A program made the position numbers and the translations under genes. A stretch of DNA of 64,000 nucleotides from assembly GCF_028279465.1 (NCBI RefSeq), contig NZ_JANQNS010000015.1, forward strand, positions 62,001 through 126,000. The letters are read 5' to 3'. The notes beneath the pieces were generated by a model, which saw only the letters and a program-made list of their open reading frames with translations, did no database searches and was not told the DNA's origin. Below, in pieces: positions 48,340-54,181 of the stretch (positions are counted from its first letter, which is position 1; each line of letters begins with the position of its first letter). The stretch comes from Parasphingopyxis sp. (GTDB lineage: Bacteria > Pseudomonadota > Alphaproteobacteria > Sphingomonadales > Sphingomonadaceae).

Positions 48340-48354
48340 TTGTAGCCGGAGCGG

Positions 48355-48700
48355 ATTTTTGCCAATCTCGACGCGCGTCAGCCGGTTCAGCGCGTCATAA
48401 TAATAGGTGGAGCCGTCATAGCCGGTGAGATTGCCGCGCCCGCCATAGCTGGGCGTGCCTACGCTATGCCAACTAATGCAATGTCACCATAAACCGTAAA
48501 CTTAGGCGGCCGACCGGTCCTGTCCACCGTCGCCTGTGTCAACCGTTTCAGGCTGTCACAGGCGGTGACGTTGCCGCGCGCATCATACAGCGGCTACAGC
48601 GAGTCCGGAGCCGGCGGATTGAGGGTCGCGCATTTATCGAGAGCCAGGAAACCGATAAGAGAGTTCGTTGCGTCTGAACTCCATTGCGTTGTTGTCGTAA
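48355..48700 (-). pseudogene. Decayed Rhs fragments downstream of the Rhs locus
   Basis: On the minus strand 48457-48363 encodes TPSYGGRGNLTGYDGSTYYY and DALNRLTRVEI, matching 50458-50364 inside the intact Rhs gene at about 89 of 95 bases. A second piece, about 48593-48480, reads PLYDARGNVTACDSLKRLTQ and so on, another YD-like repeat, and is continuous with an upstream frame (ATLNPPAPDSL) except for a TAG at 48594-48596. Frames are broken between pieces. These look like leftovers of an older Rhs core displaced by the present tip and immunity gene. The 411-base gap 48340-48750 contains nothing else I can support. Confidence 0.75.
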
Positions 48701-48750
48701 CATTCAAATTGGCGAAATAAGACAGTTTCAGCACCATTGAAATCACTAAT

Positions 48751-49176
48751 TCATATACCCAGAATTTTCGCAAACTTATCATCCACAAAATTTCGGAATA
48801 TGGCAGGCATTAGCGGAGAAAAAATAATTGCAGCAAATATATTCAGCTGGAACATAAGGCCTATAAATGTAAAGACTGGCAAACCTATCAGTATTATGCT
48901 GGGAGCATAAATAGAGTAATCAGTTCTTTCTTTGAAAATCTCTATTTTTCCTTTTCTTATATATGTAAATGGATGATAATTATGCGGGAAAAACTCAAAT
49001 TTTTTTCTGTTAAATATTATGATCTTCTTTTCGTCAAAATCTTCTATTGATAAATTATAGTAATCAGATAGAGTTTCTTGTATATTTATAATATCTAAAT
49101 CGGTATTGTCCTGTTTAGAAGTTCTATCTACCCAGCCCAAGAAAAAACGAAATATTGTTATAATCCAACTATTCAT
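48751..49176 (-). CDS. AT-rich two-helix membrane protein, candidate immunity protein for the Rhs tip
   Basis: A 141-residue protein in the most AT-rich stretch of the window. The ATG directly follows the Rhs TAA, and the sequence GGGAGGA that encodes the last Rhs residues serves as its ribosome-binding site. The N-terminal half is hydrophilic and rich in D, I, K and N (DNTDLDIINIQETLSDYYNL). Two hydrophobic helices follow at about residues 90-109 and 111-128 (YAPSIILIGLPVFTFIGLMF and on). Position, composition and size match immunity genes beside polymorphic toxins, and membrane immunity proteins often guard against pore-forming or envelope-acting toxins. The function is inferred from context only; no family is recognised. 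Confidence 0.75.
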   Translation of the reverse strand: MNSWIITIFRFFLGWVDRTSKQDNTDLDIINIQETLSDYYNLSIEDFDEKKIIIFNRKKFEFFPHNYHPFTYIRKGKIEIFKERTDYSIYAPSIILIGLPVFTFIGLMFQLNIFAAIIFSPLMPAIFRNFVDDKFAKILGI

Positions 49177-52100
49177 TTATCCTCCCGGGCAAAAATATGG
49201 GCCTAGTTTTGTTACCGTAGTCTGTCGCGAAACGCCAATGGGAAAACCAAAACTCGGCCCAGCCGAGCTTGAGGTTGGTGGTGAAAAGAATCCGCTGTCA
49301 GGTTGTTGATTTATTGTAACGGAAGCAGGTCCGGCTGAAATCGAGGTTGTACGAGCAGCGCCTACAAAATCTCTAATACTATCTGCTCCACCCTGCTCAA
49401 CAGACACTCCGACGTCGCCGAAGCCGCCTCCAAGACCTCTAGTTGTAAAAACACCGAACGCACCAAGGTCAGTTCTAAAGAGTCCGACAGTGCTGGTGCC
49501 ACCGGCTCCCATCACACTTGTCACTGTCACAGATGCGGTATGCACTCGACCCAAGAGACATGGACGATCCAGCTCACTAGAGAAATTATGCGTTACAGCA
49601 CCTCCCCGACCACCGCTCGATCCACCAGAGAGTTGTGGAGCCGTCACCACAATTTCCGGATACAGAAATCCAATGTCTTGTACGACACTTCCAAGCAGAT
49701 CGGTAAAGAAGCTATCCAGAGCAAATTCCTGCGCTGCCAAAGATGCCCTGCAAAAATAGGGGTCGATTTGGCACCCGCCCTGCACAACGATAGTGTCCCC
49801 ATAAAATGCAATAGTCGCGGGATCGAACCGTTCGAAGAGTCCCAACGGATCGACCCTATTCACCGGATCGTTTCCGACATAGGCGTAGAGGTTCATGCCG
49901 CCCTGGTATCCGATCGGGTCGGGCTGGACGAACCGGCCGAGTTCGGGGTGATAGAAGCGGTTGCGCATATAGTAGAGGCCGATATCCGCGAGCCACATCT
50001 GGCCGGCATATTGGAACACGCCGGCATTGCCCGCGCCCGGCTCGCCATGGGGGCCATAGGTGTTGATGCTCTCCATCGTGCCGTCCGTCGCATTGGCGAT
50101 GGCGATCACGCTGCCGCGCTCGTCGCGGTGCAGATAGCGGCGGTCGGCGATGGCCGTGCCCGGGCCCTCGATCGTCAGCATCGGCGCGCCCAATGAACCG
50201 GGCACATAGGCATAGCGGCGCAGCACATCGGTGCTCGTATCGGCATGTTCGGAGATGATCACATCGCCATCCCACAGGAAGCGCCGGTCATCCGCCGTGC
50301 CGGGCGCGTCGATCCGGTAGAGCCGCCCGAGCGGATCATAGGTAAAGCGGGTGTTCTGCCCGTCAATCTCGACGCGGACCAGCCGGTTCAGCGCGTCATA
50401 ATAATAGGTGGAACCGTCATAGCCGGTGAGATTGCCGCGCCCGTCATAGCTCGGCGTGATCGCGCCCGAACCCGGCGGAGTAACGCTCGTATATTGGTTG
50501 AGGCCGTTGTCCGCATAGCTGGTCGTGCCCGGCGTCTGGCCGTCATAGACATAGGCGCTGTTCGTGCGGCTGCGCGTCGCGATCTGGCCGGGCGGATTAT
50601 AGGTGAAATCCGTGGTGAGATCGTTGGCCGCGCCGCCGGTCAGTTCCTGGAACACACTGCTGACCCGCGATACGGGGTCATAGCTGTTCTGCTGCACGGT
50701 GTGGTTCGGCGTCGTATTGTCGCCCCAGACGCGGCGAAACAGCCGTTGTTCGACATCGTAGACGGACGCGAATACCCGCGATGCCGTCCCGCTTGTCGCG
50801 TTGATCCGCGTCGCGGCGGGGGCGCCTGTGTTCCAATATTGGGTGAAGAAATAGGTGTTGTCCGGATGGGTCAGCCGCGTCCGCACGCCATCGTCGCGAT
50901 AGGCGGACTGCACCGTGCCCAGCGGCCCGGTCTCCGTCAGCTGGCGACCGAGCGCGTCATAGGTGAAGGTCAGGTTGTGACCGGTTTGCGATGCCGATGT
51001 CAGCCGCGAGAAATTATCATAGGCGTAGGTGACATCCGGTGCGGCGCCTGGCGGGTCCATGAGCGTCCGGCGGTTGAGATTGTCATAGGCAAAATTAATT
51101 GCTGCGCCTGTGCGTGGCCGGAAAGATTCCAGGTTGGAATTGGCGTCATAGGTATAGGTCTCCCGGTCGGTGATCGATGAACCGCCGCCGGTGGCGTTAG
51201 GATACCGTGTCTGTATCAGCCGGTCATGGCCGTCATATACATATGTCGTGCGATTATCTTCGCCATCCTCGACAAAGCGGACCGTGCCGTTGGGATTGAA
51301 ACGCATATCGAAGGTTGCGCGCTGATCAGGCGTGTTGATGGCCTCGATACGCGCATAGAGCCGATTGTCGGCGAGATAATAGTTGCGCGATATGCGGTCG
51401 GGCCCGAAACTTCCCACAGTGCCGATCGTGCAGGCATTGGTCGGCCCACCGCCCGCGAAAAATGCCGGGTTCATGCGCACGGCCGTGCACAGGGGCTGGC
51501 TTTGCTCGTTATAGTTATAATCGGTCCTGGACGTGACGACATTGTCCGATCCGCGCAGGCGCGCGCGGACGCGCCGGCCGATATCGTCATATTCGAACAG
51601 CCGGGTCGTCGAGACATTCAGCGTGTTGAGATCAGTAAGCGTGGCGCCGTCCGTCCAGCCGCTAATCTCTTCGGTGACATTGCCATTATCGTCATAGACA
51701 AAGCGTTGCGCACGCCGCTCGATATCCGTGCCCGTGCTCGGGTCCATGCCGATCACGCCACGTAGCTGGATCCCGGCATTGTAGAAATAATAGGTTTCGT
51801 CGTCGGGGATCGGGCCATCATGGATGGTGAGATTGCCGAACGGATCGTAGGTGTAGCTGTTCGTTGCCGAAACAGAAGCGTCGCCGGCTTGCGTGGTAAC
51901 CTGGGCGAGCAACAGGTTTGTCGCAGTGCTGCCGTTGTCATAGCTCAGGATCGTTTCGGTTTCATCGTCGGTTCCGTCGCATGTCGAGCCAGTCGCACAG
52001 CTTTCGGCACGCGTCAGCCGCCAGACATCGCTCGGTGCATCGATTGGTGAGCCGCCTGAGGACTGGATATAGCGCGCGGTCTGTTCTTCATAGCTATAGC

Positions 52101-53562
52101 GCGTCTGCGGACTCACCTGAGGGCCGCCACCGTCCGGATCGGGCAGCGTGACGCTCAACAAGCCGCCATGCGTAGCGCTCCAGTTATAATTGGTGACATT
52201 GCCCTCGGCGTCGGTAGTTGTAGCAGGCCGGTTGCAGGTGACGCTGCTCGTGCAAGGATAGGTTGCGGAGGTTTCGATTGTATCCGTGCCGGATTTCGGG
52301 CGACGAATGACGGTCGTGATATTGCCGTTGCTGTCATAGCTGTACTCGACCGAATTGCCCTCCGGCATTGTCATCTCTGTCATTCGTCCGAAGCTGTCAT
52401 ACTCGTAGGTCGTTTCATTGCCTGCGCCGTCGGTCACGGATGTGGGGCGCAAACTTTGCGGTGGGTCGAATTCGACCACAACGTCGCCGCCTACAGGCGC
52501 ATCGATAGTGGTTTGAAGGAGGGTTCCACCCGGAAACGCATAGCTGTAGTTCCAGACACCTGCGCCGTCGTCGACCGACGATACGCGACCATCGATCCCA
52601 TAGCTGATATCTATCGGTTCATCGCCAGCCTCCGGCCGTTCGACCCGTGTAACCCTGAGCGCGCTGTTACGGGTTACGCGCGTCGTGCGGCTCAGATTAT
52701 CGGTTGCGGTTATGATGGTCGGCGCACTGACATCATTGTAGGTAAATGTAACGCTTGGCCAGTTTTGCGTCAGGCTGCAGCTGTCTGCCAGTGGATCGCA
52801 ATACTCCTCGGCATTGTTGATCGCGATTACGCCAGTGACGAGGTTGAATCGGTCGAGCGTAGTGACACCGGTAATGAAGTCGGACAGATAATCGATATGG
52901 AGTTGATAGCCGAGATTGTTAGTGATCGACTGAACACGGTCAGCGCGAACAAGCACGACCTGTCCTTCATAGTCGATGACGTCTTGCTCGGTCTTGTAGT
53001 GGAATGTCGTGACGATACCTGATGGCTCACTGATTTCCGTCACCCGGGCGATGATATCTTCTTCCGGATAGTCAGCGTTTAGCGACGTATCGAATTCATA
53101 GGCTGTGCCATTCGTCTGCGCATAGGTGTAGATACCGCTCCCGCCATTGAAGGCCAGTGTCGATCCTGTGCCTTCCTGCGCAGTAAACACGCCAGCGGTT
53201 TCGGTGAACGATTCGGAAGTATTGCCGAAGGTCACATAGTAGGTGGTACCCGTGCTATCGGTTATGCGCTGTATCCAGCCAAGTGTAAGATCGCGGCGCG
53301 CTGTACCATAGAATTCCATCGCGAAGCCCAGCGCCTCACCGACCGATCCGCCTGTGGAAATTTGGCCGAACGTAAAGTTGAACTCGCCGTTAGACAGGTT
53401 GACGCCGTTCGTATCGATTGTCTGATAAGGTTCGGGAGGGTTCGCTGGATTACTTGGCGGTCCAGACTGTGAAACAGCCGGCGCGGCCAGGCCAAAGCTC
53501 AGGATCGTGGTCAGGAGGAATTTGGCGGCGCGGCGGCGGGTATTGGTTTTCGGTGCGGTCAT
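49177..53562 (-). CDS. Sec-exported Rhs-repeat protein with novel C-terminal tip
   Basis: A 1461-residue Rhs/YD-repeat protein. A signal peptide (residues about 15-31, SFGLAAPAVSQ) shows Sec export rather than a PAAR/VgrG-type start. Residues about 50-1180 are many YD repeats (YEYDSFGRMTEM, FAYDNLNRRTLM, YYYDALNRLVRVEI), expected to form the hollow beta cocoon. The core ends with YYMRNRFYHPELGRFVQPDP, then NLYAYVGNDPVNRVDPLGL at about residue 1240, the conserved autocleavage region. The last about 220 residues are unlike any tip I recognise: C-x8-C near the start (GGCQIDPYFC), a glycine-rich stretch (SGGSSGGRGGAVTH), many short beta-like segments (GGGFGDVGVSVEQGG) and the end YFCPGG. The tip is presumably the effector. 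Confidence 0.93.
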   Translation of the reverse strand: MTAPKTNTRRRAAKFLLTTILSFGLAAPAVSQSGPPSNPANPPEPYQTIDTNGVNLSNGEFNFTFGQISTGGSVGEALGFAMEFYGTARRDLTLGWIQRITDSTGTTYYVTFGNTSESFTETAGVFTAQEGTGSTLAFNGGSGIYTYAQTNGTAYEFDTSLNADYPEEDIIARVTEISEPSGIVTTFHYKTEQDVIDYEGQVVLVRADRVQSITNNLGYQLHIDYLSDFITGVTTLDRFNLVTGVIAINNAEEYCDPLADSCSLTQNWPSVTFTYNDVSAPTIITATDNLSRTTRVTRNSALRVTRVERPEAGDEPIDISYGIDGRVSSVDDGAGVWNYSYAFPGGTLLQTTIDAPVGGDVVVEFDPPQSLRPTSVTDGAGNETTYEYDSFGRMTEMTMPEGNSVEYSYDSNGNITTVIRRPKSGTDTIETSATYPCTSSVTCNRPATTTDAEGNVTNYNWSATHGGLLSVTLPDPDGGGPQVSPQTRYSYEEQTARYIQSSGGSPIDAPSDVWRLTRAESCATGSTCDGTDDETETILSYDNGSTATNLLLAQVTTQAGDASVSATNSYTYDPFGNLTIHDGPIPDDETYYFYNAGIQLRGVIGMDPSTGTDIERRAQRFVYDDNGNVTEEISGWTDGATLTDLNTLNVSTTRLFEYDDIGRRVRARLRGSDNVVTSRTDYNYNEQSQPLCTAVRMNPAFFAGGGPTNACTIGTVGSFGPDRISRNYYLADNRLYARIEAINTPDQRATFDMRFNPNGTVRFVEDGEDNRTTYVYDGHDRLIQTRYPNATGGGSSITDRETYTYDANSNLESFRPRTGAAINFAYDNLNRRTLMDPPGAAPDVTYAYDNFSRLTSASQTGHNLTFTYDALGRQLTETGPLGTVQSAYRDDGVRTRLTHPDNTYFFTQYWNTGAPAATRINATSGTASRVFASVYDVEQRLFRRVWGDNTTPNHTVQQNSYDPVSRVSSVFQELTGGAANDLTTDFTYNPPGQIATRSRTNSAYVYDGQTPGTTSYADNGLNQYTSVTPPGSGAITPSYDGRGNLTGYDGSTYYYDALNRLVRVEIDGQNTRFTYDPLGRLYRIDAPGTADDRRFLWDGDVIISEHADTSTDVLRRYAYVPGSLGAPMLTIEGPGTAIADRRYLHRDERGSVIAIANATDGTMESINTYGPHGEPGAGNAGVFQYAGQMWLADIGLYYMRNRFYHPELGRFVQPDPIGYQGGMNLYAYVGNDPVNRVDPLGLFERFDPATIAFYGDTIVVQGGCQIDPYFCRASLAAQEFALDSFFTDLLGSVVQDIGFLYPEIVVTAPQLSGGSSGGRGGAVTHNFSSELDRPCLLGRVHTASVTVTSVMGAGGTSTVGLFRTDLGAFGVFTTRGLGGGFGDVGVSVEQGGADSIRDFVGAARTTSISAGPASVTINQQPDSGFFSPPTSSSAGPSFGFPIGVSRQTTVTKLGPYFCPGG

Positions 53563-53614
53563 GGCGGTCTCTCATCAGCATTCGGGTTTCGGATTGGGCG
53601 GATTTCGGCCGGAG

Positions 53615-53905
53615 TTAGTCGGGCTGGGCCGCTTGTCCGGGCTGCGCAGTGCTCAAGGGTTCGGGAGGTACCGCCGCTGATGAGGTCGTTTCGGTGACAC
53701 CCGCCGATGTCCGGTTGTCGGCAGCGTCATAAGAAAATTCGAAATCGACCGTTTCGGTTGAACGATCCGATTCAACTTCGATGACACGCCCGAGCGCGTC
53801 ATAGGTGAATGTAGCAGTTTCGGCCTGCATGGCGTTTGCGGCTGCGCTTTGGGTGGCCAAAGCCGCCGAGGCGAGAATGGCTGAAACGATGTGGCGATTG
53901 GTCAT
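53615..53905 (-). CDS. Small exported protein with a single YD repeat (mini-Rhs)
   Basis: A 96-residue protein upstream of the large Rhs gene in the same direction, 52 bases apart. It has a signal peptide (IVSAILASAALATQSAAANA). One complete YD repeat follows (TFTYDALGRVIEVESDRSTE, then FEFSYDAADNRTS), and the tail is rich in P, Q, A and S (PPEPLSTAQPGQAAQPD). It is too short to form a cocoon. It might cap, chaperone or nucleate the large Rhs shell, or be a remnant of a longer gene. The intact signal and start argue for a functional gene. Confidence 0.75.
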   Translation of the reverse strand: MTNRHIVSAILASAALATQSAAANAMQAETATFTYDALGRVIEVESDRSTETVDFEFSYDAADNRTSAGVTETTSSAAVPPEPLSTAQPGQAAQPD

Positions 53906-54181
53906 GGTGATCTCCCGGTTACGAATCAGGAGGTATCAACGCATTTCCAACATTAGAACAAAAAAAGAACAAATAGGTGGCGATGGCCTATCGAGCCGCT
54001 ATCACGCTCTCTTTTCTGGTATATTAAGCAATATGTTAGACGAGAAGCCCGTGAGAAGACGCGGAATTGGACGTCTCGGATTGATCGCAGTCTGGACTAA
54101 GGACCAAGCGGTTGCTCCAGATCTGAATCTAGTACGTAGCGCCATCGCCTCTCAATCTCCGACTGTAAAAGGCAATTGCCG
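53906..54181. other. Intergenic region between the Rhs operon and parE
   Basis: About 276 bases, more AT-rich than the flanks on the left side. It should hold the leftward promoter of the mini-Rhs/Rhs operon, and GGGAG lies just before the start codon at 53905. The right half reads as a possible protein on the plus strand from 54033 (MLDEKPVRRRGIGRLGL), but that frame then runs antisense into parE and has no homologous look, so it is not called. Confidence 0.5.

Follow-up and report, generated by a model that had tools for sequence, protein, structure and literature searches.

A probable envelope-acting effector tip with a candidate inner-membrane immunity protein on a Sec-exported Rhs protein of Parasphingopyxis

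Rhs polymorphic toxins with an immunity gene and orphan cassettes are already known (PMC3150448). In the Rhs-CT/RhsI modules of Dickeya dadantii, a DPxGL border is followed by a swapped tip, a small immunity gene adjoins it, and orphan tip/immunity cassettes occur as well (PMC3150448). The locus described here is alike in all of these respects. It differs in that its tip and immunity protein belong to unrelated families, its Rhs protein carries a Sec signal rather than depending on T6SS, and its immunity protein is of an envelope type. Tse5-CT/Tsi5 of P. aeruginosa resembles it in having an Rhs-encapsulated tip and an immunity protein with two predicted TM segments (PMC9637101). However, Tse5-CT is T6SS-delivered and membrane-spanning, whereas the tip studied here is glycine-rich, apparently beta-type and lacks a TM helix. 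Ntox25 (PF15530) and Tse4 are mostly-beta, beta-barrel ionophores that depolarise membranes (PMC11630599); these are carried by CdiA or T6SS, whereas the present tip sits on a Sec-exported Rhs protein. Teneurin-like proteins share with our locus a Sec-exported YD shell, a swapped C-terminal toxin and an immunity gene (PMC13018210). They have no known delivery machine, one of their tips is toxic only on export, and some carry OMP-like predictions (PMC13018210). Gram-negative teneurin-like proteins are predicted SPII lipoproteins, in contrast to the Rhs protein here, whose signal is of type I, whose gene is accompanied by a mini-YD gene and which belongs to a different lineage.

The locus bears on how Gram-negative Sec-exported Rhs/YD proteins reach and harm other cells. 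We analysed a window of 64,000 nucleotides (the whole stretch of DNA under study) and surveyed Rhs tips across the family. Together, the locus and the survey offer a testable picture in which the tips of these proteins would be mostly envelope weapons, with the compartment readable from the immunity gene. Many tips carry a cysteine bracket closable only via an oxidising route, and the Rhs gene is preceded by that of a small, conserved partner protein. What is new is both families, that of the tip and that of the immunity protein, together with the mini-YD partner and, among Sec-exported Rhs tips, the bias towards the envelope and the cysteine bracket; a limited literature search found no earlier description of any of these. 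Tip and immunity protein form a compact pair and are candidates for a new family of membrane-active toxins.

The Rhs gene and its islet

The host genome is 3.3 Mb and 99.99% complete, with the window on contig 7. The Rhs gene occupies 49177-53562 on the minus strand, starts with ATG and encodes 1461 aa. Its conserved parts and surroundings are as follows.

48340..54181, no strand: Rhs islet inserted between two genes, one for a GNAT protein and one for a topoisomerase of the GyrB/ParE type
48363..48618, minus strand: displaced Rhs core remnants
49837..53466, minus strand: Rhs/YD shell and core (RHS_repeat and TIGR03696), ending with DPLGL (residues 1238-1242)
53467..53562, minus strand: Sec signal sequence at the N-terminus of the Rhs protein (residues 1 to ~32; MTAPKTNTRRRAAKFLLTTILSFGLAAPAVSQ)
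53615..53905, minus strand: small Sec-exported mini-YD protein, 96 aa

The membership feature of Rhs polymorphic toxins, YD repeats plus an Rhs-associated core ending in PxxxxDPxGL, is present. The protein matched Pfam RHS_repeat (E=2.2e-27) and Rhs_assc_core (TIGR03696, E=5.5e-23, residues 1171-1242), both matches ending exactly at DPLGL. The core contains a second aspartate motif, DPIGY, at residue 1215. A DPxGL motif and a second DPxG aspartate are features of autocleaving Rhs proteins (PMC8636562).

An earlier note, made from the letters of the window, had ended the core at DPLGL, and the ends of the RHS_repeat and Rhs_assc_core matches confirm this position. Its tip borders, 49177-49845, were correct to within 3 codons. 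It had also treated everything after DPLGL as a variable module, which agrees with the comparison to the full-length Rhs protein of a congener (G005): identity is 0.67 over residues 1201-1260 but 0.18 over 1261-1320, the usual pattern of C-terminal displacement. Identity returns to about 0.4 over the last 140 residues because the window and congener tips are related. Finally, the note had proposed export by a signal peptide and not by T6SS. By inspection, the N-terminus has a Sec-type signal comprising RRR, a hydrophobic stretch and an AxA-like site, with no lipobox cysteine. T6SS TssC/VipB had no match in the 99.99%-complete genome; the tip is therefore not T6SS cargo, and the proposal stands. 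Judged by eye, the 20 other full-length Rhs genes taken from the family as a sample likewise begin with a hydrophobic export-type N-terminus.

For the outer membrane, the genome contains a full-length gene for the T2SS secretin GspD. Passage by Sec and then across the outer membrane, through T2SS or otherwise, conflicts with none of the observations and may tentatively be proposed, the sequence evidence bearing on the Sec step only. An SpvB/Tc-type architecture was considered and rejected, as SpvB is absent from the genome.

Base composition falls along the locus, with GC at 0.62 for the window, 0.59 for the core, 0.52 for the tip and 0.30 for the 141-aa gene behind it, and with GC3 at 0.41 in the tip vs 0.70 in the core. 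The module has the character of horizontally acquired DNA. The GNAT and GyrB/ParE-type genes lie 5.8 kb apart here vs 8-584 bp in seven congeners. Within this islet, two remnant segments of a displaced core (48363-48457 and 48555-48618) are 93.7% and 73% identical to the core, respectively (blastn).

The tip and its downstream gene

48751..49176, minus strand: putative cognate immunity gene, 141 aa, abutting the tip's stop, with homologues behind congener tips
49177..49836, minus strand: effector tip at the variable C-terminus, residues 1243-1461 with the stop codon, delimited by GC and by the identity drop past DPLGL
49189..49560, minus strand: conserved glycine-rich domain, seemingly beta-type, with the C1335-C1458 bracket (from congener tip alignments and cysteine layout)
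49750..49773, minus strand: first cysteine pair (CX6C: C1264 and C1271), part of the linker before the domain

The tip proper comprises 219 residues (1243-1461, at 49836-49180) followed by the stop. Glycine makes up 16% of it, and its four cysteines lie at 1264, 1271, 1335 and 1458. The glycine-rich domain is the portion held in common with relatives. No TM helix was predicted from hydropathy.

Searches against Pfam (E<=10), NCBIfam and PDB sequences gave no real match. The sole Pfam signal, a reovirus beta-spiral, was sub-threshold at 16 bits vs a 25-bit cut-off. The earlier note's impression that the tip resembles no toxin family thus held in all three resources, where the tip matched no ordinary structural domain either. 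Profile searches with the tip group and the immunity group found nothing in the PDB, and the tip matched no pore-former family. The Ntox25 profile matched neither the window tip (E<=10) nor any of 83 tips surveyed in the family (E<=0.01), and 299 genomes held no Ntox25 members. Its FGPY motif is not conserved in the tip group; the window tip has a single LGPY close to its C-terminus, which its relatives lack. Close tip relatives were found only in one congener, along with one weak match in another genus of the family. No relatives of tip or immunity protein turned up among plasmids, in IMG/VR contigs or in 85,000 species genomes, and across 385 genomes class-wide the window genome was the sole match to the tip profile. 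A match in G080, antisense to a Cys/Met-type enzyme gene, was discarded.

Invariant columns across five aligned tips consisted of Gly, Phe, Thr and Cys, and a conserved His/Asp/Glu/Ser/Lys catalytic set was absent. This combination speaks more for a membrane-active structure than for an enzyme. A single-sequence AlphaFold model of the tip reached a pLDDT of 36.5, so that its strands at 109-156 are a hint only. Beta amphipathicity of the tip was no better than in shuffles (z 0.31), with z>=2 in 4 members of its nine-member group (maximum 4.6). The earlier description of a glycine-rich, cysteine-paired tip with beta-type segments therefore stands for glycine and cysteine and is a prediction for the beta fold.

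The 141-aa gene is the key to interpreting the tip. It starts on the base after the tip's stop, in a GGAGG-ATAA-ATG junction that places the Shine-Dalgarno sequence inside the Rhs gene. Hydropathy divides its product into a soluble N-terminal part with NYHPFTYIR and a C-terminal membrane hairpin (93-109 and 111-127), and its structural model predicts a helix at 90-139, at high local pLDDT, that spans both hydrophobic segments. The closest relatives of the window tip are the main tip and a broken orphan tip of the congener, 40 and 45% identical over the shared region, the latter being interrupted by an insertion sequence (IS) and compared from its 3' part alone. Homologues of the 141-aa gene (L008:5272-5727 and L008:11255-11734) sit directly behind both of them (BLASTP E 2.9e-9 and 4.5e-8). 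As tip homologues thus lie directly ahead of immunity homologues in the congener, the tip and the 141-aa gene are, on sequence grounds, a predicted effector/immunity pair, co-segregating as such a pair should. No homologues beyond these two appeared in 398 family genomes, a search in which very low E-values are partly circular since the members built the profile. Two more distant orphan tips of the congener are followed by other genes, with lipoprotein-type N-termini (...ILTSC, ...YLSSC).

The most conserved stretch of the immunity family is NYHPF[TS]YI, just before the membrane hairpin. The congener array (L008:4500-16217) consists of a main gene and three orphan tip/immunity cassettes, of which one has its tip split by an insertion sequence/transposase gene and two have lipoprotein-type immunities. 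Two further Rhs tips lie nearby (L115:1165-3607) with soluble neighbours; a single congener cell thus holds envelope-type plus cytosol-type tips.

Rhs tips across the family

An Rhs-associated core was detected in 47 of 200 family genomes, from which 83 tips with an adjacent downstream ORF were extracted (L047-L114). Mean column identity among them was 7%. A simple hydropathy and lipobox rule assigned 27 neighbours as TM, 17 as lipoproteins, 15 as having a single N-terminal hydrophobic segment and 24 as soluble. Envelope-type neighbours accordingly accompany 59 of the 83 tips vs 13 of 48 window genes under identical rules (Fisher p=1.4e-6, with tips non-independent owing to arrays and shared ancestry).

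Tips of recognisable fold served as calibration. All four nuclease-like tips (RNase A, Ntox37, DUF4258 and UPF0102-like) had soluble neighbours, while the M15 D,D-carboxypeptidase, phospholipase A2 and M91-like tips had exported, TM and lipoprotein neighbours (3/3). The association between tip type and neighbour type gave p=0.029 from seven cases only. From this calibration, the neighbour's compartment appears to report that of the tip, and by the same rule the compartment of the window tip appears to be the inner membrane. The survey suggests that Sec-exported Rhs proteins of the family carry mainly envelope-targeting tips. Glycine content peaks where the neighbour is a TM protein (p=0.0004).

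For most of the 83 tips there was no match at all; recognisable ones also included a Colicin M-like tip and several metallopeptidases. Examples of tips with a recognisable domain are found at L093:2852-3478, L080:472-1083 and L054:973-1560.

A second regularity concerns cysteines. The window tip, the three congener tips that are intact and four tips of other genera have one layout in common. Around the glycine-rich domain, two cysteines lie close together near the start, a third lies 122-145 residues before the end and a fourth 1-6 residues before it. The close pair occupies a similar position in 8 of 9 glycine-rich tips. Across the survey, a bracket of about 115-150 residues ending <=6 residues from the C-terminus occurred in 15 of 83 tips vs 0.65 expected from shuffles, for a pattern that was defined post hoc, after inspection of the data. 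All 15 bracketed tips, the window tip included, have envelope-type neighbours (p=0.004). Helical glycine-rich tips and the M15 enzyme, whose folds are unrelated, have the bracket too. Being present on such unlike folds, it looks like a trait of tips that mature in an oxidising periplasm rather than of one fold. The bracketing cysteines of the window tip would fit oxidation in the periplasm, where disulphides are predicted.

Proposed action and its alternatives

On balance, we favour reading the locus as a Sec-exported Rhs polymorphic toxin with an envelope-acting, probably membrane-depolarising beta-type effector and an inner-membrane immunity protein. The parts of this reading differ in strength. 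That the tip acts in the envelope is highly probable. A beta-barrel fold and depolarisation are more tentative; by analogy, the tip may work like the Ntox25/Tse4 ionophores. Since structure prediction failed and amphipathicity was not significant, the pore step is one that we infer, as we do toxicity and cleavage. Such a step agrees with these ionophores (PMC11630599), with Tse5/Tsi5 (PMC9637101) and with the teneurin-like proteins, for which OMP-like tips and toxicity dependent on export are reported (PMC13018210). The earlier note had suggested that the tip may be an envelope-acting or pore-type effector and not a nuclease. Its envelope claim gains from the membrane immunity gene, the link between tip and neighbour types and the cysteine bracket; pore formation is the more tentative proposal.

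In the proposed sequence of events, the Rhs protein would pass the inner membrane by Sec, and its YD shell would enclose the tip as it folds in the periplasm, a compartment in which disulphides could form among the four cysteines. The DPxGL aspartyl site would separate the tip from the Rhs protein. After exit across the outer membrane, possibly through T2SS, the tip would strike the envelope of a neighbouring cell, with its glycine-rich beta structure entering the inner membrane and depolarisation as the most likely outcome. The 141-aa protein, with its two inner-membrane helices, would block the tip in the producer.

A less probable account, which nonetheless deserves weight, makes the tip an unrecognised envelope enzyme and not a pore. 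It would hydrolyse or bind peptidoglycan, lipid or some protein of the periplasm, and the membrane immunity protein would intercept it at the inner-membrane surface. Tips acting on peptidoglycan (M15), lipid (PLA2) and protein do occur in the family with exported or membrane neighbours, and the lipoprotein rather than TM neighbours of two glycine-rich congener tips would suit a periplasmic target better. However, the five aligned tips have no conserved catalytic set and the window tip is very glycine-rich.

It is improbable that the tip is instead an OMP-like beta domain for surface display, attachment or outer-membrane insertion, with toxicity secondary or absent. Some teneurin-like Sec-exported YD proteins have predicted OMP-like C-termini (PMC13018210), and a glycine-rich sequence of apparent beta type without TM helices is of that kind; but a tip with a structural role would have no need of a membrane partner gene that is swapped, AT-rich and inherited with it, or of orphan cassettes of tip and partner. 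Still less credible is an ordinary cytosolic toxin, such as a nuclease, with a membrane-bound immunity protein by chance: although the L115 tips of the congener have soluble neighbours and the export route is compatible with cytosolic toxins, the tip matched no nuclease, and nuclease-like tips of the family consistently have soluble neighbours. A decaying module, with a non-functional tip left by recombination at a hotspot that also holds remnants of another Rhs core downstream, is the faintest prospect, given an intact tip frame fused to an intact core, an intact immunity gene with a coupled start, and cysteines and a domain conserved with the congener.

The depolarising-effector reading can be extended, though we consider the extension rather unlikely. 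The tip would then found a family of disulphide-closed, glycine-rich beta ionophores within a distinct Sec-routed Rhs system that kills without an injection machine, from the periplasmic side. That system would comprise the mini-YD partner, the Rhs shell, cysteine-bracketed envelope tips and membrane or lipoprotein immunities.

The mini-YD gene lies directly upstream of the Rhs gene across a 52 bp gap, and its product matched RHS_repeat (E=5.9e-8). Of 20 full-length Rhs genes from the family, 16 have an equivalent gene directly upstream. The protein may serve the shell as a lid, as an anchor or as a partner in export. Mini-YD proteins contain one or two YD repeats, to which a proline spacer and a further C-terminal domain are sometimes added, and their genes are found in the window and at L116-L122, L126-L129 and L131-L135.
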